64,000 nucleotides of DNA. It comes from Candidatus Kapaibacterium sp. (GTDB lineage: Bacteria > Bacteroidota > Ignavibacteria > Kapaibacteriales > UBA2268). The stretch spans positions 1-64,000 of the forward strand of contig CALHGZ010000010.1 of assembly GCA_938031175.1 (NCBI GenBank), read 5' to 3'. A program made the translations under genes and the position numbers. The notes beneath the pieces were generated by a model. That model searched no databases and was not told where the DNA came from. It saw nothing but the letters and a program-made list of their open reading frames with translations. Positions 5,498-37,411 of the stretch are shown one piece after another. Each line of letters opens with the position of its first letter. Position 1 is the stretch's first letter.

Positions 5498-5582
5498 ATG
5501 AAATTTTTTTTACTTTTCATTGTTTTTTATTTAAAATATTTTCATAAATTAAAATTTAATTGTTCAATGTTTGGAAAATTTT

Positions 5583-7157
5583 ATGAAAAGAAGAGAATTT
5601 TTACAAAGTATCTCAAATTCAGATGATCGAGTGCAGTCAGATTTAACGCCGTATACTAAACCATTGTCGATTCATGAAGCATACCATTTGTTAAGAAGAA
5701 TATCCTTTGCACCCACACCAGAATTAGCTAATAGTTTAGTTGGTAAATCTGTTGTAGAATTATTTGACGATATTTTTGTTGAGACTCAAGCATTACCAAC
5801 AGCACCGGATAAAAAATGGATAAACATACCTAACGAAGACCCCTTAAAAGCTGGTAATCCGGCATTAAGATTTGAAATTGAAGCCGAGATTAAAAATAAT
5901 TATTATCAATTTGTTGACTGGTGGATTAACTTGATGAGAAATGAAATAAAACTTCCCTTACGTGAAAAACTTGTACTTTTCTGGTCCACAGTTTGGACAA
6001 TTGAATTTACATATGATACTGAGGCATTGATACCGCCAGGATTATGTTATAGGAATAATCAGATTTTGAGACAATATGCTCTTGGTAATTATGGTGATTT
6101 TGCTGAAGCGGTTACATTAGATGGTGCAATGCTTTTATATCAAAGTTTATTTTATAGCAATAGGCGAATAGCAAATGAAAATTATATGCGTGAATTGATG
6201 GAATTATTCATGATGGGTACAGGAGATATCCTAACAGGTAATCCAAATTATTATGAAAGTGATGTGAAAGAGGGAGCTAAGGCTTTAACAGGTTGGAGAA
6301 ATGGAGCTTATCTTAATGAACCTGCTCCGAAAGGTTATTTCAATACATATTTTTCGCCTCATGACCATATTATTGAAGCGAAATCCTTTTTGAATAATAT
6401 AATTCCTTCGCGTACTGAGGATCAGAATACAGAAGATCAAGTTCGAAATGAAGAGGTGAGGAAAATTATTGATATTATTCTAAAAGAGAGAAAAATGTCA
6501 GTTGCAAGATTTATAAGCGATAAAATTTATAAATATTTTGTATATGCTGAACCTAAATCTGCCTCTACTTATATAATCAATTCGCTTGCTGAAATTTTTT
6601 CCGATAGTGATTTCAATTTGCGTCAATTATTTAAAAGTTTGTTTACAAGCAGCCACTTTTTCGATAAAGAGAATATAGGTATACAATTCAAAACACCTCC
6701 TGATTATATAATCGGCTTTGAAATAATGTTGGGAGTAAAATATCCAAATTCTCGCAAGGCTATATTTGATTTGGAACAGGAATTATATGATCCTCCCAAT
6801 GTTGGAAGTTGGAAAGGATACAGAACTTGGATAAGCACAAAAACATTCCCTCTGAGAATCAAATATGCCAATGAAATTCTTTCAGTTGCAACAGAACAAA
6901 ATCTATTGAATTTAGCAAAAAAATTTAGCGATTATACAAATTTAGATAGTTTGAATTTTAATTTAATTCAATTTTTCTTGCCTGATATTACAAAAATTGA
7001 TATCGAACGGCAAAATAGATATAAAGATATTTTAGCAAACGGAATTTCAGAGAGCAATTGGAGTCAAGCTATTCAGGATAGTGATCCGAAAGTTGTAGAA
7101 GGCATAAGAAATTTAATTAAATCATTCATCTTATCACCAGATTTCCAATTATGCTAA
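5583..7157 (+). CDS. DUF1800 domain protein
   Basis: The protein matches the DUF1800 family, which is usually encoded beside DUF1501 proteins in secreted or planctomycete-like gene pairs and has no assigned biochemical role. The ATG at 5583 (MKRREFLQ) is preferred over an in-frame TTG four codons earlier, because RREFLQ-type N-termini are common in this family. Features include LLRRISFAPTPE near residue 40 and a conserved central block, ENYMRELMELFMMG, then VKEGAKALTGWR. The C-terminal part contains VGSWKGYRTWIS. No hydrophobic signal core follows the Arg pair, so export is uncertain. The DUF1501 gene follows after 12 bases, with a strong ribosome site between them. Confidence 0.8.
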   Translation: MKRREFLQSISNSDDRVQSDLTPYTKPLSIHEAYHLLRRISFAPTPELANSLVGKSVVELFDDIFVETQALPTAPDKKWINIPNEDPLKAGNPALRFEIEAEIKNNYYQFVDWWINLMRNEIKLPLREKLVLFWSTVWTIEFTYDTEALIPPGLCYRNNQILRQYALGNYGDFAEAVTLDGAMLLYQSLFYSNRRIANENYMRELMELFMMGTGDILTGNPNYYESDVKEGAKALTGWRNGAYLNEPAPKGYFNTYFSPHDHIIEAKSFLNNIIPSRTEDQNTEDQVRNEEVRKIIDIILKERKMSVARFISDKIYKYFVYAEPKSASTYIINSLAEIFSDSDFNLRQLFKSLFTSSHFFDKENIGIQFKTPPDYIIGFEIMLGVKYPNSRKAIFDLEQELYDPPNVGSWKGYRTWISTKTFPLRIKYANEILSVATEQNLLNLAKKFSDYTNLDSLNFNLIQFFLPDITKIDIERQNRYKDILANGISESNWSQAIQDSDPKVVEGIRNLIKSFILSPDFQLC

Positions 7158-7169
7158 AAGGAGAGAGAA

Positions 7170-8762
7170 ATGGACAGGAGAACTTTTGTAAAGAAAACGT
7201 CTTTAATAACAGCAGCAACTATAGTAACTCCCTATATTTTAACAGGTGAACCCAAAATAAAAGTTTATCCCAATGATACAATCAATTCATTTGAGGATGA
7301 CAGTATTATGATATTAATTGAATTATTCGGAGGTAATGATGGTCTAAATACAATTATTCCTGCATATAATGATTTGTATTATACTTTGCGTCCAAATTTG
7401 TCGTATCCAGTTGAATTTTGTAGAAGATTTGAAAATTCGGATTTATATTTTAATCCGAATTTGGTTGATGGTATATTTAATGGTGGATTACTTCAAATGT
7501 TTGCAGAAGGCAAGCTCGCAATTATAGAGGGGGTTGGATATGAAAATCCTAATTTATCTCATTTCCGTTCTCAAGATATCTGGTTGAGTGGAATCAATAA
7601 CTCCAATAATAGCGTTAAGTTAACAGAAGGTTGGTTAGGTAGATTTTTAGCACGTAAATTACCAGGTTACCCACTTGAAATCCCAGAACATCCATTAGCA
7701 ATTCAAATTGGTGGCACTTTATCATTATTGCTAAAATCCGATGTTGGAGATATGGGCATAGCATTGACGGATCCAGATAAATTTTATGAATTAGGAAATG
7801 GTTTGACACCCAATGAACCTTTGAGAACTGGAATTTCAAAATATGATAAAGAATATAATTTTATTCATACAATTGCAAAACAATCCGAGATATATTCAAA
7901 AGCTGTGAAACAAGCTTATGATAAAGGCAAAGAACTGATTAAAGTTAATTATAGCTCTGGTTTATCACAACAATTTAGATTGATCTCAACTCTTATAGCC
8001 GGAGGTTTGAAAACCAAAGTTTATTATGTATCGCTTAGTAATTTTGATTCCCATGCACAACAGCAAAGTGGGTATTATGTTGGGCAACATCCGACTTTAT
8101 TAAGACAGGTAGCAAATGCAATATCTGAATTTATGGAAGATGCTATTCAATTGGGTTATGCCGAGAGAATAGCAGGAATGACAATCTCTGAATTCGGTCG
8201 TCGTGCCTATGACAATGGTAGTAATGGAACTGATCATGGAGCTGCATCTATGCAATTCGTTTTTGGACATGATAATTACGTAAATGGTGCATATTATCGC
8301 GAACAAGGTAAACCTGATCTAAGCGATTTAGATGATGCCGGTAATGTTAAGTTTCAATATGATTATCGGCGTACATTTGTTGATTTTCTTCAATCCTGGA
8401 TGGGTGCTACTGATGATGATATTGAAGCAGTATTTGGACAAAAATTTATGCCTATTGGAGTTTTGAATCCAAGAACTGTATCGGTTGATGATTCAATCGA
8501 GTTTAACAATAATTTAGCAATTAATATTTATCCTAATCCTTCTGCTGGCAAAGCAGTTGCCGAAATCGTACTTAAGAGAAGTGCAGAAATAAATTTGGAA
8601 ATTTATAATTTGTTGGGCTTTAAAGTCAGTACTTTATATAATGGTTTTGCCGATTCGGGATTTCATCGATTCAACATAACTATTGATAAATCAAATGCAT
8701 ATTACTGCCTTCTAACAATAGGTAATAAGAAATATAGTGCAAAATTTATAGTTAACAAATAG
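7170..8762 (+). CDS. DUF1501 protein with Tat-like signal and T9SS sorting domain
   Basis: DUF1501 proteins resemble the sulfatase/alkaline phosphatase superfamily and are usually exported through Tat. Here the N-terminus DRRTFVKKTSLITAATIV is a clear twin-arginine signal. Family landmarks are ELFGGNDGLNTIIP near residue 50, SHFRSQDIWLSG near 130, SNFDSHAQQ near 290 and MTISEFGRRAYDNGSNGTDH near 335. The last 80 residues form a T9SS type A sorting domain (NIYPNPSAGKA ... YNLLGFKV ... KYSAKFIV), so the mature protein should reach the cell surface. AAAAGGAG at 7156-7163 is a good Shine-Dalgarno match. It is co-transcribed with the DUF1800 gene. The catalytic role is unknown. Confidence 0.85.
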   Translation: MDRRTFVKKTSLITAATIVTPYILTGEPKIKVYPNDTINSFEDDSIMILIELFGGNDGLNTIIPAYNDLYYTLRPNLSYPVEFCRRFENSDLYFNPNLVDGIFNGGLLQMFAEGKLAIIEGVGYENPNLSHFRSQDIWLSGINNSNNSVKLTEGWLGRFLARKLPGYPLEIPEHPLAIQIGGTLSLLLKSDVGDMGIALTDPDKFYELGNGLTPNEPLRTGISKYDKEYNFIHTIAKQSEIYSKAVKQAYDKGKELIKVNYSSGLSQQFRLISTLIAGGLKTKVYYVSLSNFDSHAQQQSGYYVGQHPTLLRQVANAISEFMEDAIQLGYAERIAGMTISEFGRRAYDNGSNGTDHGAASMQFVFGHDNYVNGAYYREQGKPDLSDLDDAGNVKFQYDYRRTFVDFLQSWMGATDDDIEAVFGQKFMPIGVLNPRTVSVDDSIEFNNNLAINIYPNPSAGKAVAEIVLKRSAEINLEIYNLLGFKVSTLYNGFADSGFHRFNITIDKSNAYYCLLTIGNKKYSAKFIVNK

Positions 8763-8855: not shown

Positions 8856-11800
8856 ATGACAAAATATATTGTTTTATTATCTATATTAATATTTCAACAA
8901 TCAATTCTTCTCTCCTTTGAAGAATGCGATACAGTAAGAGCTTGCTTAGGTAATGCTTTAACGTTAACAGTACCTACAGGTAGAGGTGTTCATTATGTAG
9001 ACGTAATGAAAACAGAGTCGCATAAATTAATGAATGATGCTTTCACTTTTGAATTGTGGATGAAACCACAAAGACAAGCTGGTTTTACCCAATTTATAGC
9101 AGGCTTATGGGGACCTTCATTTGATAAAAATGATGCTTGGGTTTTGTATTTTTCAGATAAAGATAGTTTAGTATTTGAAATTAATCATCCGGATGTTAAT
9201 CTTAAAAGGACTGATAATACAATAGTCTCATACTATGCAATACAGCTTTATGATAAGTGGAATCATGTGGCAGCTGTTTTTGATGGTTCAACACAAAGCG
9301 CTTCTCTGTTTATTAATGGTGTATTAGTTGCTTCATCGAGAAACAGTCTATACCCTGCTTATAGATTACGTAGCATTGCAAATCCTGAATTATCAATTCA
9401 AATAGGCAGTACAAATGCACTATCAGATAGTCATCAAAATCGTGCATTTTTAGGACAGATGGATGAAATTAGAATCTGGGCTAAATCTCTAACACAAATA
9501 GAAATCTATTGTCAAAAAGATTTATCTCTTACTGGAAATGAGGACAGACTTATTTTGTATTATAGATGTAATGAAGTACCGAGCAATTTTACATTGTGCG
9601 ATGCTTCAGGGAATAGCAATTTCGGTAAAGCACGAAGCGGAGCTTCCTGTCAAAAGTCCGATAGAATTTTTAGAAGCAATCTTATAGCATCGCCACTATC
9701 CATATCAGATACAATTGTATGTGACACTCGTAAAACATATACTTTTACAGTGCGTGATACCTCGGTTTGTACTAATCGTATTTGGATGCGCATAATTGAT
9801 AATAATTACAAAGAGATCCCAATATTTACCATAACACCTCGTAGTACATATCTTCAGCCAAATCAGCCAATTACATTCACTGTTACAATTGATGCAAATT
9901 TTACTGGGCAAGTTAATGGCATATTGCAAATAATACCTTATAATAATTGCAGAACAATAATTAACATCCCATTAAAAATCACCCGCATTGGAGAACTATC
10001 ATATTCAAAAATAAGTTTGGATATGGATACTTTAATAGCTCATTGCATTGAAAAGCCATACATTGATTCAATTATTTCTTTATGTAATGTAACCAATAAA
10101 TCATCATTACCCAAAGTAATTAGAATTGATAAGCTTCTAACTAAATTCCCAGAAGTTTTTCAAATAATTTCTAAACCATTGCCGATTATCCTTCAACCCG
10201 GTGAATGTACTGATATCACTGTCAGATTTCTTTCTCAAGGTAAAACTAATACATATTTTGATACTCTAACAATAATATCAAATGATAAATGCTCAGGAAC
10301 AGGAAAGATTCCACTTATTGGTAGAGTACAGGAAGCAATAGCAATTACCTATCCAGACGGCAAAACAAAACTTGATTCAATCGATTTCGGGACGATTTGT
10401 GTCAATTTCGCTTCACAAGTAATTAATTATAATTGGCGAAATCTTCTCAATGTAGATATAACAGTTGATTCAATTATTTTCCCACAAAATTTCACTGGCA
10501 GAACATTTAGATATCCGATAACATTAAAAACAAATACTGGATATTTACCAAATTATTTGAGATTTGTTCCCAAGATAGCTGGAATTATCAAAGATTCAAT
10601 AATTTTTGTTGTTAAAGCCGGTGCTTGTACTATTTATAGGCCTGTGTACGTAAAAGGCAAGGGTTTTTTAGCTGATGTCAGATTTTTGCAAAATTCGCTT
10701 AATTTCGGTAATGTTGTTGTTGGTCAGGAACAAACCCAAAATTTCACAGTACAAAATTTTTGTGATGACACTCTGTCTTTGTCATTCTATTTGAGAAAAG
10801 GTGAAGTCTTCTTTTTAACCGGTGCAAAAGCAATCATACTTGCTCCAGGGCAGATTAGAAATATTCCGTTGACCTTTCGTCCAATTAATGGCATTGATTA
10901 TTTCGATGAAATATGCTTGTATGAAAGAAGGTGTTTTTCGTCTCTTTGTATCCCAATTAATGGTAAAGGTATTATTGAAAAATTTGATTTTATTCCAAAA
11001 ATTCTTGAGATAAATAATGTTGTAGGTTGTAGCTATGATGAAAAAGATATTGTAATTAAAAATATTTCTGGAAAAACGCAAACTCTGACAAATTTTATTA
11101 TAAATGATCCATCCAACCGATTTACATTAGTAGAACCAGATCAGTTTCCTAAGACATTGTATTTGCAAAATAATGAATCAATAAAATTTAAATTCAGATA
11201 TACCCCTGCCGATTCATATACAGATCGTGCCGATTGGGCGTTTCTAAATTTTCGAGATGAACAAAATGTTCAATGGGCTGCAAAATTATACGGCAGTTCG
11301 TTTTCACCAAAAATATTTATAACTGATCCTGTTGATTTTGGAACAATTGAAGTTGGTAATAGGAAACGTCAAACGATAATTATCGAAAATATTTCTCCGG
11401 TACCAGTCAAGATTGATAGTATCAATTTACCATTGGGTTTTGAACTTATTTATCCATCAACAAGTAATTTCAACAAGTTACTCAAACCACGTGACACACT
11501 ACGTTTAATTGTTGATTTTGTTCCACAAATTGAAAATGATTATAGTCAATTTCTGTTAGTCCATTCAAGTGAGCCTTGTATTGTTGATTTCTCCACGCTT
11601 TTAATTGGGAAATCTATTATTGTACCTCTTGAAGTTCCAATTTCTGTTTTGAGCTTCGGTTTTATACTTCCTTGTGATTGTTCTACCAGGCAAATACCAC
11701 TTTTAAATCAATCATTTGTCAATAAAATGGTAATTGATAGTCTTTGGATAGATGGTGAAGGTGTTGTTAATCCTTATCCTGAATTTTTTTCTTGGCGTTC

Positions 11801-13850
11801 CTTTTTTTCGCCAAATAGTACATTACCATTTGAAATTCCTGCTTGGTCGCGTGATACATTAGAAGTAATTTATTGCCCAAGATCAATATCAAATAGACAA
11901 TTTCTGGATCATTCCGCTAAATTAAATATAAATGCAAGTGGTATCGGATGGGAGAGAAGCTTTTATACATATTTGGCTGGGAAGCAGACTCTTATGTTAG
12001 AAGCAATTCCAACAGAGTTAAACTTTTCACCAACGCGGGTTGATACCTTATCGGTACCACTCTTTACAAAGATAACCATACCTGAAACAGCTGTAAACCC
12101 TGATAGATTACCTGTAAAAATAGATTCAATTACATTTCAACCTAATGAGCGTGTTTTCTATGTTTACGATTCATTGGGTAATAATTTTCCATTAATATGC
12201 GACGTAGATAATGAATTAAATTTAGTAGTTTATTTCAAACCGCGCGCAGTTAGAAATTACAGTGCGAAAATGGTAATTCACACAAATTCACCATGCGAAG
12301 GGATTGACACTACTATACTTGTAACAGGTAGTAGCTTTGCTCCTGCTTATGGTTTATCATTCAATTTTGACAATTTTCGCGTAAGCCAAGATACATTTAG
12401 ACTTATAAATTGCGATACTTTATTAGTTCCAGTTTATACATCAAGGGAAATTCCAGCAGATATAATTGATATTCAATTTAGGTTTGGATATGATACCACG
12501 AAACTTGCATTGGTTGGTGCTGATTCTCCATATTTAAAAGATACTTGCAGCAATTTCCAGCCAGCGATTTCATTTAAAAACTCATTATATGGTGGCTCTG
12601 ATGTTATATTGAAAAATTTATGCAATGTAGATTCGACTAAACCATTCATTATAGCTAAATTCATATCAAAAATTACAGGTCCGGATACAACCTCCATAAT
12701 TGTGGATAGTATAAAATTTGATACAGAAGGGGTTCTTTTGTATCATTTAATAGCTGATCCAGATGATGCTATTGTTATAATACTAAAACCATCATTTACA
12801 GTAATAAATTCACTTGATTTCGATAGCGTTCGTGTGCTGGATTGTGTTCAAAGACAATTGATAATTCAAAACAACGGTGATGTACCTATAGCAATTTGGG
12901 ATATAATCAATTTGCCCAAAGATTTTCGTATTGTTTCAAGTAGCCCACCTTTAAATCAATTAATTAATACAGGTGAAATTATTGAAATAACAATTGAATA
13001 TTGTCCAAGACGTAAAAGAAATATTGATACAAATATTATTGCGGTAAGTCAAAATCCATGTCAATTAACTAAAGATGTAATTATTAAAGCAATTGCTTAT
13101 GTACCTGAGTTACCTTTTGGAATTGACTTCAGCCAAACATTTACTATTAATGATACAATTTATGCAAGCATTGGAGATATAATTGACTTACCAATTTATT
13201 TCGAGAAAGATTTTTCCGATATTCGAAATGGAATTGAGTACTGGCTTTTGGATATTAGCTTCAATCTCGATGTTTTTTATAATCCGCGTTCACTGAAATT
13301 TATGCAGATTGATCCTGCAATAAAATCCAATTTGCGTTACGATTATGTACACGGCCATGTTAATTTGATGTTTAAAAACGTTGATTCACTAAAAGCAGGA
13401 AAGATTGCAAACTTGAAGTTTTTAGTTGTAGTGCCTGATTCCATTGTATCTAGTATAAATATTAATGCACATAGTTTCGAAACAGACTCAATAATGTTTT
13501 TAGAATTAATTCCAATACCTGAGGAAACAATTTTTGTTAGCATAGGTAAATGTCAAATAACAAATTTACGATTTACAACAAATTCAAATTATTTGAAACA
13601 GAATTCACCCAATCCATGGTCGGAATATACTTCAATTGAATTTTCTATCATGGAGAAATCTGCAGTAAAATTGGCAATTTATAATGGGTTAGGACAGCTT
13701 GTAGATGTAATTCTCGATGGTTCTCTAATTTTCTCGCCCGGTGTATATAAGCTCACTTTGAACTCTTCGAATTTACCTTCCGGAATTTATATTTATACAA
13801 TAAATGCTGGTGTTTATTCAGAAACAAAACAAATGCTCCTTTTAAAATGA
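8856..13850 (+). CDS. Very large secreted surface protein: LamG, anchor-D repeats, cohesin-like modules, T9SS sorting domain
   Basis: A signal peptide (YIVLLSILIFQQSILLS) is followed by a LamG/concanavalin-like domain at about residues 35-225 (FTFELWMKPQ, WNHVAAVFDGSTQSASLFINGVLV, FLGQMDEIRIW). The middle consists of repeated Ig-like choice-of-anchor-D/ASH modules, recognisable by recurring LNFGNVVVGQ, VDFGTIEVGN and LDFDSVRVLD strands. Two regions, around residues 1160-1300 and 1430-1550, look like cohesin-type modules (IQFRFGYDTTKLALVGAD; LDISFNLDVFYNPRSLKF). The protein ends with a T9SS type A domain (NSPNPWSEYTSIEFS ... LPSGIYIYTI ... KQMLLLK). At 1664 residues it is probably an adhesin or surface scaffold. 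It stands 93 bases after the DUF1501 gene. Ligand unknown. Confidence 0.8.
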   Translation: MTKYIVLLSILIFQQSILLSFEECDTVRACLGNALTLTVPTGRGVHYVDVMKTESHKLMNDAFTFELWMKPQRQAGFTQFIAGLWGPSFDKNDAWVLYFSDKDSLVFEINHPDVNLKRTDNTIVSYYAIQLYDKWNHVAAVFDGSTQSASLFINGVLVASSRNSLYPAYRLRSIANPELSIQIGSTNALSDSHQNRAFLGQMDEIRIWAKSLTQIEIYCQKDLSLTGNEDRLILYYRCNEVPSNFTLCDASGNSNFGKARSGASCQKSDRIFRSNLIASPLSISDTIVCDTRKTYTFTVRDTSVCTNRIWMRIIDNNYKEIPIFTITPRSTYLQPNQPITFTVTIDANFTGQVNGILQIIPYNNCRTIINIPLKITRIGELSYSKISLDMDTLIAHCIEKPYIDSIISLCNVTNKSSLPKVIRIDKLLTKFPEVFQIISKPLPIILQPGECTDITVRFLSQGKTNTYFDTLTIISNDKCSGTGKIPLIGRVQEAIAITYPDGKTKLDSIDFGTICVNFASQVINYNWRNLLNVDITVDSIIFPQNFTGRTFRYPITLKTNTGYLPNYLRFVPKIAGIIKDSIIFVVKAGACTIYRPVYVKGKGFLADVRFLQNSLNFGNVVVGQEQTQNFTVQNFCDDTLSLSFYLRKGEVFFLTGAKAIILAPGQIRNIPLTFRPINGIDYFDEICLYERRCFSSLCIPINGKGIIEKFDFIPKILEINNVVGCSYDEKDIVIKNISGKTQTLTNFIINDPSNRFTLVEPDQFPKTLYLQNNESIKFKFRYTPADSYTDRADWAFLNFRDEQNVQWAAKLYGSSFSPKIFITDPVDFGTIEVGNRKRQTIIIENISPVPVKIDSINLPLGFELIYPSTSNFNKLLKPRDTLRLIVDFVPQIENDYSQFLLVHSSEPCIVDFSTLLIGKSIIVPLEVPISVLSFGFILPCDCSTRQIPLLNQSFVNKMVIDSLWIDGEGVVNPYPEFFSWRSFFSPNSTLPFEIPAWSRDTLEVIYCPRSISNRQFLDHSAKLNINASGIGWERSFYTYLAGKQTLMLEAIPTELNFSPTRVDTLSVPLFTKITIPETAVNPDRLPVKIDSITFQPNERVFYVYDSLGNNFPLICDVDNELNLVVYFKPRAVRNYSAKMVIHTNSPCEGIDTTILVTGSSFAPAYGLSFNFDNFRVSQDTFRLINCDTLLVPVYTSREIPADIIDIQFRFGYDTTKLALVGADSPYLKDTCSNFQPAISFKNSLYGGSDVILKNLCNVDSTKPFIIAKFISKITGPDTTSIIVDSIKFDTEGVLLYHLIADPDDAIVIILKPSFTVINSLDFDSVRVLDCVQRQLIIQNNGDVPIAIWDIINLPKDFRIVSSSPPLNQLINTGEIIEITIEYCPRRKRNIDTNIIAVSQNPCQLTKDVIIKAIAYVPELPFGIDFSQTFTINDTIYASIGDIIDLPIYFEKDFSDIRNGIEYWLLDISFNLDVFYNPRSLKFMQIDPAIKSNLRYDYVHGHVNLMFKNVDSLKAGKIANLKFLVVVPDSIVSSININAHSFETDSIMFLELIPIPEETIFVSIGKCQITNLRFTTNSNYLKQNSPNPWSEYTSIEFSIMEKSAVKLAIYNGLGQLVDVILDGSLIFSPGVYKLTLNSSNLPSGIYIYTINAGVYSETKQMLLLK

Positions 13851-33227: not shown

Positions 33228-34082
33228 ATGAAAATAGCTTTCATTTATGATTTTATCATAAAATTACTCAAAAAAAATATTGCATCTCATATTAATTTTA
33301 TTATTTCAGTAGCATCAATTACTATCATCATTACTTTAGCCATAGTTCTATGGGAGTTCACAAATTCAAAACTTCAAGAAATATCAGATGAATTTACTGT
33401 AGCTATTGTTTTGAAAGATAATATAACTAACACTCGAATAAACTCAATTATTACTGAATTAATGCAATATGAAGTCGTCAAAAAAGCTAAACATCAGGAA
33501 TCAACCGCATCTTTGAAAAAATTCTTAAATAATCATGGCTTTAGCGAAGAAGAACTTCTTTTGGACGGCAGTTTTCCTGAAGTCATTTTATTGACCTTAC
33601 AATTAAATTACTTTGATCAAACCCAATTTTTTTATTTAATAGATAATTTGAGAACTAAGCCCTATATTGACGAGGTTTTATATAAGGAAGCATATATTAA
33701 CAATATTTTTAAAATTGTTGACGAATTTTCTGTAATATTTTTAGGTATCATATTTTTTTTAATTTTATTAGCCACAACAGTTATCATACAATCTATCAAA
33801 AATGTTTATTCTATATTGAGAAAGAATTTCGAATTGTTGATGACGTTTGGATCTAGTAAATTTTACAATTTTCTCATTTCTATTCAATATATATTGATTT
33901 TAATAATAATTGGGTTTTTAGTTAGTATATTAATTATTTCGGTTATATGGCAACTCTTAGCTTTAAACAATATTAATATTAACATTGACTTTACTTTTCC
34001 AACCATCTATGCTATATTAGTAATATTATGTTATGTTATTATAATTAAATTAGTTAGTATGTTATTTTTATATCGTCACTAA
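33228..34082 (+). CDS. ftsX: Cell-division permease FtsX
   Basis: FtsX forms a complex with the ATPase FtsE and switches on peptidoglycan hydrolases at the septum. The protein has one N-terminal helix (residues about 22-46), a periplasmic domain with SDEFTVAIVLKDNITNTRI and LTLQLNYFD blocks, then three C-terminal helices (about 165-190, 215-240, 255-280). The region SIKNVYSILRKNFELLMTFGSSKF is the typical cytoplasmic coupling stretch. No ftsE lies in the window, so its partner must be elsewhere. It is embedded between the flippase and an LptF/G-type permease. Confidence 0.8.
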   Translation: MKIAFIYDFIIKLLKKNIASHINFIISVASITIIITLAIVLWEFTNSKLQEISDEFTVAIVLKDNITNTRINSIITELMQYEVVKKAKHQESTASLKKFLNNHGFSEEELLLDGSFPEVILLTLQLNYFDQTQFFYLIDNLRTKPYIDEVLYKEAYINNIFKIVDEFSVIFLGIIFFLILLATTVIIQSIKNVYSILRKNFELLMTFGSSKFYNFLISIQYILILIIIGFLVSILIISVIWQLLALNNININIDFTFPTIYAILVILCYVIIIKLVSMLFLYRH

Positions 34083-35179: not shown

Positions 35180-35938
35180 ATGAAAACAATCAATACGATA
35201 TCATCGATTGAGGGAAGAATTTTATTACATCAAATTTTTAAAGAACTAAGATTTGAAAAACAATTCTCTACATTTACAACCTTATTGAGATTGTGGAGTT
35301 TATGTATTAATGCGAAAAATATCAATAGATTAACAAAACGTAATGTTGAGATATTGCACTCCCTTGGATTTTTCAGTGGCACAGGTTTGTGGCTGGGTGA
35401 AATTGTTAATCGATATTATTTTTCTACAATTAATTCATTGGTTTATTTCGGTGCGGCAGTATTGCTTGTCTTGGTCGGATTGAGGCGATTCAGTGATATC
35501 ATTGATGATAGTATAGTTCTTTTAGGTGTCGGTTTTGAGGCATTAATGCTATTGTTTATGTTTTTTGTTATGCTATTTTCACCTTCTGAAGACATTTCAC
35601 TTAAATCTGATACAGATGAAACAGACGAAGCTAATGAATTATTGACCGAAGTTGGAGAAATTGCAAAAGAATTTGCTTCTGCTGTAATGGCAATCGATAA
35701 CTTATCTGAAAAGGTCAATAATTTGATTGAATTGCAAAAAGAATCTATTGATAAATTGAACCATATCGGAGAAGCTTTTGCAAATGCAATTTCTCCAAAT
35801 CCGGAATTAGTACCCATCTTGAAACAAACTAATGAGGAACTCGTCAAATTTAAAGAAGGTATAATACAATTATCAAATATGATTGAGACAATTAAAAATG
35901 CCGAGCTCGAATTAATTATTAAACAAAAAAATCAATGA
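35180..35938 (+). CDS. GldL-like protein (candidate T9SS/gliding motor subunit)
   Basis: The layout is like GldL/PorL: two transmembrane helices (about residues 84-102 and 112-134) followed by a long cytoplasmic helical, coiled-coil tail (145-250). The second helix contains GVGFEALMLLFMFF, in which Glu120 falls inside the membrane and is followed by Ala, as in the ion-carrying Glu of GldL. There is an N-terminal extension of about 80 residues not usual in GldL. The next gene, 15 bases on, encodes a one-helix periplasmic protein like GldM, the natural partner. T9SS-sorted proteins in the same window support the need for such a motor. Homology is inferred from layout and a short motif, not from an alignment. 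Confidence 0.5.
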   Translation: MKTINTISSIEGRILLHQIFKELRFEKQFSTFTTLLRLWSLCINAKNINRLTKRNVEILHSLGFFSGTGLWLGEIVNRYYFSTINSLVYFGAAVLLVLVGLRRFSDIIDDSIVLLGVGFEALMLLFMFFVMLFSPSEDISLKSDTDETDEANELLTEVGEIAKEFASAVMAIDNLSEKVNNLIELQKESIDKLNHIGEAFANAISPNPELVPILKQTNEELVKFKEGIIQLSNMIETIKNAELELIIKQKNQ

Positions 35939-35953
35939 TTACAAACTTAAACT

Positions 35954-37411
35954 ATGACTATCGGCAGAAATAGGAAAATAGATATTTATTTTGTGTTGTA
36001 TCTCGCAGCATTATTATTTTTACTACCCGATAGCGAAAAAAAAGAATTGGGCAACAAATATGAATCTTCCTTACCTATATTAGAACAAACTTTTAATTTA
36101 TATTTAGATAAAACAACACTAATATGTACTGCTGCACTGGATTCAAATGGAATAAACATTATATCATTCGATTCAATTAATACAATATATTACACCGGCA
36201 ATGTTGACAATGTAAGAATGGAATTTACAATTCAGGACCAAAATCTTGGATTATATTCCTATGTAAGTGATGTTAATTACAAAGGTAAATTTTTTCGAAT
36301 TGTTGAATCAAGGAATGAAAAAGCAACTTATTTCTATTGGAATCCTACCTTTGATGAACTAACCAATAAAAGCTATATAGTTGATGTAATTGCCTATGCT
36401 AAAGAAAATCAAACCGGCAATGAAGTCAAGGCAAGAATAAAATTCAGTTTGAATTTACTTTTTATCAGAGATGTTATTAGTAGTCAACAACTTATTTCAA
36501 TCAAGGAATCAGATACAACGCTGCTTAATAATTTAAGTTCACCAACTTTTGAATCCACAGCACGACCAGTTGAATTGTTGGTTGCTTCCAGTATCGTTGA
36601 ATCTTTAGCATATGAAAACTGGTCAAATCAGATTTTTATCAATGGTACAATCAGTCGAGATATAGAAAAAATTTTACCTTTAAGAATATTGAGAAATCCA
36701 GAGAATAATGGAGGAACAGCAGAAATTATAGATTTAAAAGGAAGTACAATAATATTAGGTGGCCGCACACCTTTCGGTGGGAACATGAAAGTCGAATTTG
36801 CCTTAATTAGAAAGTATGACGGTCAGAAAATTTCTCTCGAATTTACTGTTTCGCCTAGACCAATACGCCAACCTGAATTTGCAAACCGTATGTACCCTGG
36901 TGCCAAATATTATATTAAACCTAATTTACCTATCCTGAAAGGTATAACAACACAAGCAATACTAAAAGATGGACAAAATGAAAGAGTTGTCTCCGATGGT
37001 ATAAGTGAGATTGAATTCGTTCCAGAACTGAATGATACGGGGAAAACATTTGTTCTTGAACGTTACATTAACCAAACATTGAGAGATAAATTTAATATTT
37101 TTATTCAATCTATACCTGAACCCAAAATAATAAGGTTAGTGTCGGATAGTCCGGGAAAAGTAAAACTGGAAACGCGTTCTTTCGGATATTACAAAGGTAA
37201 AGAAAACCTTGTTCAGTATCTTGAAATAGATGGTAATGCCAAATATTTTCAGAAATTTGGTACCTTACCGGTATCCTCAAATGAATTGGAACACTCACAA
37301 TTCTTTGAAATTGTACCTAAAAATGTTAAGGAAAAATTCGAATTCAGGGTAAGGTGTATTGATAATTATGGTAAAAAATCTAATTTTGAAACATATTCAG
37401 AATTTAAATAG
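35954..37411 (+). CDS. GldM-like periplasmic protein (candidate T9SS motor subunit)
   Basis: One transmembrane helix near the N-terminus (residues about 10-25, RKIDIYFVLYLAALLFLLP) is followed by some 450 residues of beta-rich periplasmic sequence that could be several Ig-like domains (for example about 170-290, 300-390 and 395-480). This matches GldM/PorM, whose single helix packs inside a GldL pentamer and whose periplasmic domains reach the outer-membrane translocon. No strict sequence motif of GldM was identified. The position right after the GldL-like gene is the main evidence. It could instead be an unrelated envelope protein. Confidence 0.45.
   Translation: MTIGRNRKIDIYFVLYLAALLFLLPDSEKKELGNKYESSLPILEQTFNLYLDKTTLICTAALDSNGINIISFDSINTIYYTGNVDNVRMEFTIQDQNLGLYSYVSDVNYKGKFFRIVESRNEKATYFYWNPTFDELTNKSYIVDVIAYAKENQTGNEVKARIKFSLNLLFIRDVISSQQLISIKESDTTLLNNLSSPTFESTARPVELLVASSIVESLAYENWSNQIFINGTISRDIEKILPLRILRNPENNGGTAEIIDLKGSTIILGGRTPFGGNMKVEFALIRKYDGQKISLEFTVSPRPIRQPEFANRMYPGAKYYIKPNLPILKGITTQAILKDGQNERVVSDGISEIEFVPELNDTGKTFVLERYINQTLRDKFNIFIQSIPEPKIIRLVSDSPGKVKLETRSFGYYKGKENLVQYLEIDGNAKYFQKFGTLPVSSNELEHSQFFEIVPKNVKEKFEFRVRCIDNYGKKSNFETYSEFK

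Follow-up and report, generated by a model that had tools for sequence, protein, structure and literature searches.

The GldLM motor of Flavobacterium johnsoniae has been reported to power secretion dependent on the type IX secretion system (T9SS), and a glutamate of GldL, E49, is described in the same article as needed for motor function, its protonation state being said to control helix contacts (PMC8986121). The periplasmic partner GldM is divided, in the account given for this species, into four domains, D1 to D4 (residues 32-232, 233-320, 321-405 and 406-513) (PMC5790014), and PorM is described as a membrane helix followed by a helical D1 and three immunoglobulin (Ig)-fold domains, D2 to D4, the last of which contacts PorN (PMC12421860). 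Here we analyse a 64-kb stretch of DNA (the window, within which all positions are counted unless a locus is named) in contig 10 of a Candidatus Kapaibacterium sp. genome of 2.69 Mb, assembled in 18 contigs and 96.99% complete. It carries two neighbouring genes on the + strand, which encode P1, a GldL-like membrane protein of 252 aa (35180..35938), and, after a gap of 15 bases, P2, a GldM-like protein of 485 aa (35954..37411). We consider that this pair probably corresponds, in Kapabacteria, to GldL and GldM and forms a divergent GldLM-type motor that most likely drives the T9SS. Since both proteins stand outside the curated GldL and GldM families and a helical D1 is absent, we name the motor GldLM-type and not GldLM.

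A survey based on profiles that included the TIGRFAM models of GldL and GldM reported the T9SS in no clade other than Bacteroidetes, where 60 of 97 genomes had it (PMC4793230); a later paper indicates that it may also occur in Ignavibacteriota and other phyla of the Fibrobacteres-Chlorobi-Bacteroidetes (FCB) group (PMC11285876). We found no published description of the P1-P2 pair among the matches listed by a literature search that had preprints and most of the subscription literature outside its scope.

Organization of the gene pair

Conservation in P1 was read from an alignment of 32 sequences with 35-50% identity to it. The invariant residues include Met1, G12, R13, G63, G67, E74, R78, Y89, G91, A92, A93 and E120 (the last in 32 of 32), and the start codon is supported by the invariant Met1 together with the conserved N-terminus. 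The AlphaFold2 model of the protein (pLDDT 84.5; pTM 0.49, a low value that makes the relative placing of the parts unreliable) opens with an alpha/beta part made of a strand (2-6), two helices (10-26 and 31-44) and a second strand (56-60), continues with a 41-residue helix (64-104) whose end forms membrane helix 1 and with a helix (110-132) that forms membrane helix 2, and closes with two long helices (147-204 and 210-251). On the DNA, where all features of the pair lie on the + strand, the N-terminal part (residues 1-80), presumed cytoplasmic and holding the six invariant residues from G12 to R78, covers 35180..35419. Membrane helix 1 (about residues 84-103; 35429..35488) bears the G91-A92-A93 motif and R102 at G+11, and membrane helix 2, placed by both model and alignment (35507..35575), bears the Glu120 codon at 35537-35539. 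The modelled coiled-coil tail (residues 147-251) occupies 35618..35932, and both it and the N-terminus would, by analogy with GldL, lie on the cytoplasmic side.

The N-terminal extension of about 80 residues, pointed out as unusual in the initial annotation, was confirmed, and its conservation holds throughout the order. However, its last 20 or so residues, those preceding helix 1, align with a different family of hairpin proteins from the same genome, and part of the extension is therefore not special to P1.

For P2, we relied on 25 aligned sequences with 25-36% identity and on a deeper set of 99 rows. Its N-terminal membrane helix (residues 11-23; 35984..36022) carries a near-invariant EIYFxLYLAA-type motif in the 25 sequences, and the core of this motif is found in 98 of the 99 rows, all 98 having at least two Lys or Arg among the six preceding residues. 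In the model (pLDDT 81.9, pTM 0.47), the helix is followed by beta strands apart from short helices, arranged in four domains of about 46-172, 207-302, 317-385 and 391-485, with boundaries read from the list of strands. The first of these (36089..36469) is found where GldM is described as having its helical D1 (PMC5790014) and, P2 being beta-folded throughout, it would stand in place of D1. The stretch of 207-385 (36572..37108) overlaps residues 215-398, which align with GldM D2-D3, while the last domain (37124..37408) may be the D4 counterpart by its position. The architecture initially proposed for the two reading frames, a hairpin with Glu120 and a coiled-coil tail in P1 and a single helix with beta strands in P2, was thus confirmed.

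Similarity of P1 to GldL and of P2 to GldM

We compared the two proteins with canonical GldL and GldM sets taken from Bacteroidota genomes matched by TIGR03513, in which 22 of 30 loci were aligned. With hhalign, P1 matched canonical GldL over columns 84-241 with a probability of 79.5% (P 1.5e-5), and the alignment placed both the GAA motif and Glu120 in register with GldL, the latter facing the conserved Glu of its helix 2. The score of 43.8 was well above those of the controls, which reached 18.8 for the reversed profile and at most 18.6 in 30 single-column shuffles and 30.3 in 30 eight-column block shuffles. A deeper P1 profile of 86 rows, set against the 15 GldL rows to which a coverage filter reduced the canonical set, gave 79.3% and a score of 43.5 (24.6 reversed; maximum of 24.7 in 80 shuffles); this P1 set contains the query twice, some relatives in the deep P1 and P2 sets are present under two names, and hhalign used 72 and 76 of their rows, respectively.

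We considered whether the coiled coil could be the sole source of the GldL match and rejected this, since the hairpin by itself matched GldL (74.1%, with a score of 27.2 that exceeded all of 120 shuffles) and the tail by itself did so weakly (10%, score 23.2 against a shuffle maximum of 22.4). The spacing between the Gly of the GAA motif and the Glu is 29 residues in all 32 P1 sequences, a value shared by 12 of the 22 GldL sequences, eight others having 33 and two having 31. All 22 GldL sequences have Lys at position Gly+11 of helix 1, and the P1 relatives mostly have another basic residue there, Arg (26 of 32), the rest having Asn (4), Tyr (1) and Ser (1). Like GldL and PorL, P1 is a protein with two membrane helices and a coiled-coil tail whose gene is directly 5′ of that of its partner, and it differs from them in its conserved N-terminal extra part, in the weak similarity of the tail and in escaping the curated model. 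Indeed, TIGR03513 (cut-off 68.3 bits) gave no P1 match in the NCBIfam search at E<=1. These profiles give good support to a homology between P1 and the hairpin of GldL.

The deep P2 profile of 99 rows matched 30 GldM rows with 73.0% and a score of 48.2, compared with 19.8 for the reversed profile and a maximum of 31.0 in 80 shuffles, and aligned P2 residues 215-398 with GldM template residues 243-426, which correspond to about D2 and D3. P2 further resembles GldM and PorM in having one N-terminal membrane helix, a length of about 500 aa and tandem beta (Ig-like) domains, whereas its first domain is beta and not a helical D1, the sequence of its membrane helix is unlike theirs and TIGR03517, the curated GldM model (cut-off 180 bits), matched neither P2 nor any of the 25 P2 relatives at E<=1. 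Homology of P2 to GldM D2-D3 is moderately supported at the profile level. Each protein separately matched its proposed counterpart above shuffled controls, and the case for the two together is strengthened since the GldL-like and GldM-like matches occur side by side in the GldL-GldM order.

In searches with single sequences, neither P1 nor P2 found anything above cut-off or at E<=0.1 in Pfam, NCBIfam or PDB sequences. When scanned singly, the 32 P1 relatives gave coiled-coil-type matches such as COG6_N (19 of 32, best 6.5e-5) and IcmG_DotF (5 of 32, best 2.8e-5) among the best 25 of 117 Pfam families, and TIGR03513 was absent among the best 25 of the 75 NCBIfam families matched. The 25 P2 relatives had scattered matches in Pfam and NCBIfam, each in a single member. 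When the P1 profile was searched against PDB sequences, the matches were mostly coiled coils, including a GldL chain (7sax_C, E 0.0017) that was reached through the tail and to which we gave no weight; the same search with P2 had one match, which we judged to be due to chance.

Pairing and distribution

P2 lies downstream of P1, in the same orientation, at 67 of the 80 named loci, so that their association is more than chance. Thirteen loci had no adjoining P2, and a P2 profile search of 12 of the genomes concerned (L104, at a contig end, was left out) recovered P2 in 11, in nine of them away from P1 and in the other two either where a contig ends or next to a further P1 piece. This speaks against the idea that P1 without a neighbouring P2 points to an independent function; the retention of both proteins even when apart argues for a joint one. 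P2 is single-copy in the source genome. In L104 (6001-7233), the frame of the P1 homolog, at the end of a contig, extends to 411 aa and finishes in a charged sequence unrelated to P1, which may be a fusion or an assembly artefact.

The relatives of P1 in GTDB genomes come mostly from metagenome-assembled genomes named Candidatus Kapabacteria or Kapaibacterium, Ignavibacteria or Bacteroidetes. A P1 search of 60 genomes, the source included, matched all 60, in 57 cases at E 1.2e-29 or better. The three weak best matches (G010, 8.7e-5; G039, 4.9e-13; G048, 2.0e-9) may represent only other hairpin families.

T9SS genes and the canonical motor

The source genome contains SprA (885 bits, plus a second piece), five matches to the PorV model at E<=0.1, three of them above cut-off, and a Peptidase_C25 protein of 1913 aa (209 bits) that we read as standing for PorU; in the relatives, PorV was above cut-off in 20 of 20. 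T9SS-sorted substrates, already proposed for the window, were recovered with unequal scores. One T9SS-type C-terminal signal, at 8856-13850, is above the Pfam cut-off (32.0 vs 27 bits) and another, at 7170-8762, is below it (22.5 vs 27 bits). With SprA, PorV, a PorU-type protease and substrates bearing the C-terminal domain all predicted, the gene content indicates that the source organism bears a T9SS. The weaker of the two signals belongs to the second gene of an adjoining DUF1800 and DUF1501 couple at 5571-8762.

A canonical gldLM pair located elsewhere in the genome was also considered. TIGR03513 and TIGR03517 found no match in the source genome at E<=10, although its incompleteness means that a missing stretch is possible, and a GldL match was absent in all 16 genomes of the order examined, the source included. 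At the same loose threshold, TIGR03513 gave matches in 10 of 14 control genomes, none of them above cut-off. No standard gldLM and no other curated family for the pair came to light, and the reading of the two genes as a divergent variant of the GldL/GldM motor, put forward in the initial annotation, gains support from the profile matches, the gene order and the lack of a detectable canonical motor.

In 198 genomes of the phylum, SprA was detected in 154, GldL above cut-off in 48 (51 at E<=0.001) and the P1 profile in 26, counts that are not independent owing to shared ancestry. All 26 genomes with the P1 profile have SprA and none has GldL above cut-off. Full-length matches account for 17 of them (16 from the order itself and G180), the rest being weak matches to hairpin proteins of the class.

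Evidence against the assignment and alternative explanations

A number of observations weigh against a GldLM-type motor, and they are gathered from here on with the alternatives on which they bear. In a fold search of 350,542 PDB chains, P1 had no match at E<=0.001; four of its 35 matches at E<=10 are GldL/PorL chains, which is notable among so many chains, but each is weak, the best (7sax_D) covering 47 columns at 2.1 A with 25% identity. VIA-align gave GldL chains Z values of 5.3-5.5, and ZorA chains (5.5-5.8) and unrelated helical hairpins scored equally high. This tie with ZorA is an argument for regarding P1 as a stator of the MotA/ExbB/TolQ or ZorA type and not of the GldL type. However, Pfam gave P1 no MotA, TolQ or ExbB match at E<=1, MotB_plug at 0.88 being its one motor-like line, and P1 has two membrane helices where MotA has four and ExbB three; a stator of that kind seems to us very improbable. 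The proteins retrieved by fold searches with P2 were generic Ig-type ones and similar, and neither GldM nor PorM was among the best 50 of either search. As far as the predicted models go, the fold searches neither confirm nor exclude a kinship with GldLM.

The match between P2 and GldM, strong with the deep profile, fell to 24% with the 25-row profile and to 6.7% (score 31.4) when rerun under other settings, even though the latter score was still above the reversed profile (18.0) and 60 of 60 shuffles (maximum of 23.4). The membrane helix of P2 did not match that of GldM (score 11.0, with at least five of 60 shuffles higher and the best at 16.2), and the P2 model has no helical D1. Taken with the frequency of Ig folds and coiled coils among proteins, the unlike membrane helix would suit an unrelated two-protein membrane system that came to look like GldLM by convergence of simple features, namely a hairpin with an acidic residue, a coiled coil and tandem Ig-like domains. 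Such a system might be tied to LptFG or to the downstream efflux genes, and lptF/lptG is indeed the commonest neighbour of P1 besides P2, being present in 33 of the 80 loci. Against convergence, the hairpin devoid of its coiled coil surpasses every shuffle in the comparison with GldL, P2 is colinear with GldM D2-D3 above 80 of 80 shuffles, and P2 was kept in nine genomes although apart from P1. We find this explanation improbable.

Further objections to a GldLM-type motor come from the genomes. Genome G249, of unstated completeness, has P1, and the P2 profile search found no P2 in it. Among the 20 relatives, neither GldK nor GldN was above cut-off in any; 18 had a GldK match at E<=0.001, mostly to part of the model, and GldN had one weak match. 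The ring contacted by GldM is therefore not detected either, and gldK and gldN are not beside the pair, whose neighbours in the locus are lptF/lptG and efflux genes. Lastly, 81 of the 198 genomes of the phylum have SprA and match neither the GldL nor the P1 model. Absence of TIGR03513 is thus common in the phylum and not telling by itself; going by these searches, divergent or unrecognised motors are common there.

Other GldL-type hairpin proteins

The existence of two further proteins with the same hairpin in the source genome, of 450 aa (L031, 8316-9668) and 319 aa (L032, 7964-8923), also counts against our assignment of the T9SS role to P1-P2. We read each of them from its sequence as having extra N-terminal membrane helices, and the Gly, Arg and Glu of the hairpin are conserved in both the ~450-aa (5 of 5) and the ~330-aa (7 of 7) families. 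The P1 profile matched the ~450-aa family with 96.7% over whole profiles and 97.3% over the hairpin only, and the hairpin of the ~330-aa family with 97.9%. The 450-aa gene, at about 134300-135700 of contig 6 of the source genome, has an extra N-terminal membrane-helix pair, lies directly 5′ of the 1913-aa PorU-type gene and has no Pfam family at E<=0.01. The 319-aa protein, encoded in contig 8, has no GldM-like neighbour.

P1-P2 could then be a true GldLM-type 5:2 motor with some other task, such as surface motility or envelope transport, the T9SS being powered by another hairpin protein, likeliest the ~450-aa one. In favour of this, the ~450-aa gene immediately precedes a PorU-type protease gene in three of four loci of the order (L031, and L034 and L037, whose proteases match that of L031 by BLAST at E 1e-115 and 3e-92, but not L042), its hairpin Glu is invariant, and we saw no T9SS gene among the genes that commonly flank P1-P2 in the 80 loci. 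On the other hand, P1 is alone in the source genome in having a GldM-like neighbour, and among the three families its hairpin is the only one with a clear match to canonical GldL (74%, against 8.6% for the ~450-aa and 10.9% for the ~330-aa family). When shuffled by blocks, the GldL score of the ~450-aa family was equalled or beaten by one of 60 shuffles and that of the ~330-aa family by six of 60. We therefore regard this division of labour as unlikely, and prefer the reading in which P1-P2 drives the T9SS.

Elsewhere in the same class, we read 12 loci from 10 genomes, and nine of them (L176, L177, L179, L180, L181, L183, L184, L185 and L189, from seven genomes) have a GldL-like gene and, after it, a gene whose product has one membrane helix and a periplasmic part. 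The hairpin of these pairs matches that of P1 (98.5%, E 1.8e-15), and the YFxLY-type membrane helix of the partner matches that of P2 (95%, score 34.0 against a maximum of 15.8 in 60 shuffles). They differ from P1-P2 in having no N-terminal extension of the size found in P1, a Gly-to-Glu spacing of 45-47 in seven of nine and a short partner, about 180-210 aa in seven of nine, and several are followed by other unknown secreted proteins. The hairpin match of this class family to canonical GldL is only 1.5%. The profile evidence places P1 within a hairpin family of its class, and no other member tested comes as near to canonical GldL.

In L177, L179, L180, L181 and L184, the operon consists of the GldL-like gene, a gene for a ~200-aa transmembrane-plus-periplasmic protein, one for a ~370-aa protein and repeated pairs of ~510-aa and ~465-aa proteins with signal-like N-termini; the proteins of the L180 run had no Pfam or NCBIfam match above cut-off. 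Three separate GldL-like/GldM-like pairs (L176, L185 and L189) occur in a single genome, G111. In another family of the phylum, L187 (6263-8136) has a 242-aa GldL-like gene (TIGR03513 E 1.5e-7, under cut-off) and then a 380-aa GldM-like gene. The product of the latter resembles P2 in being a GldM-like protein without helical D1, and matches TIGR03517 over positions 232-482 with 38 bits against the cut-off of 180. It is shorter and, unlike P2, recognised by the GldM model, and P2 has a beta domain in the place of D1.

Proposed mechanism and implications

Of the tasks that P1-P2 could perform, powering the T9SS is the most economical, because the genome has the translocon and yielded no second GldM-like protein, and because the F. 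johnsoniae motor is reported to power T9SS-dependent secretion (PMC8986121). This role, which we infer from genome content, would be exerted by an assembly in which a ring of five P1 hairpins encloses two P2 membrane helices. Protons moving inward would protonate and release Glu120 in each hairpin in turn, and the P2 dimer would turn or bend inside the ring. The shaft of four Ig-like domains in P2 might carry this motion across the periplasm to the outer-membrane translocon (SprA/PorV/PorU), while the tail and the extra N-terminal part of P1 would hold the ring still from the cytoplasmic side. The pentamer-dimer assembly, the proton coupling, the rotation and the delivery of work to the T9SS are all extended here, provisionally, to P1-P2.

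How GldLM energy reaches the T9SS translocon and what keeps the GldL ring still are presented as open questions in the literature (PMC9389320). If our proposal is true, a motor with a replaced D1, an undetectable GldK/GldN ring and an extra N-terminal domain on its ring protein would reveal the essential parts. Such a motor also bears on how the T9SS can appear motorless outside the Bacteroidia. The standard motor was not detected in this poorly known bacterial group, and the pair appears to be a far-diverged version of the T9SS motor. As a tentative extension, the Kapabacteria T9SS may combine a standard outer-membrane translocon with a rebuilt GldLM-type motor, which has an all-Ig shaft, an added cytoplasmic ring domain and no GldK-GldN ring, and with two further GldL-type hairpin proteins that have an additional pair of membrane helices. 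The three hairpin families and those of the rest of the class might then belong together in a single large family of ion-driven motors of the GldL type, so far undescribed.

Genes flanking the pair

The gene 5′ of P1 (34093-35175) encodes an LptF/LptG permease (PF03739, 268 bits), and that 3′ of P2 (37458-38834) an outer-membrane efflux protein (PF02321, 219 bits). Upstream of lptF/lptG, at 33228-34082, we observed a gene for a divergent FtsX-like membrane protein (FtsX_ECD at E 7.6e-4, under cut-off), which had a BLAST match in just one of the 80 P1 loci.

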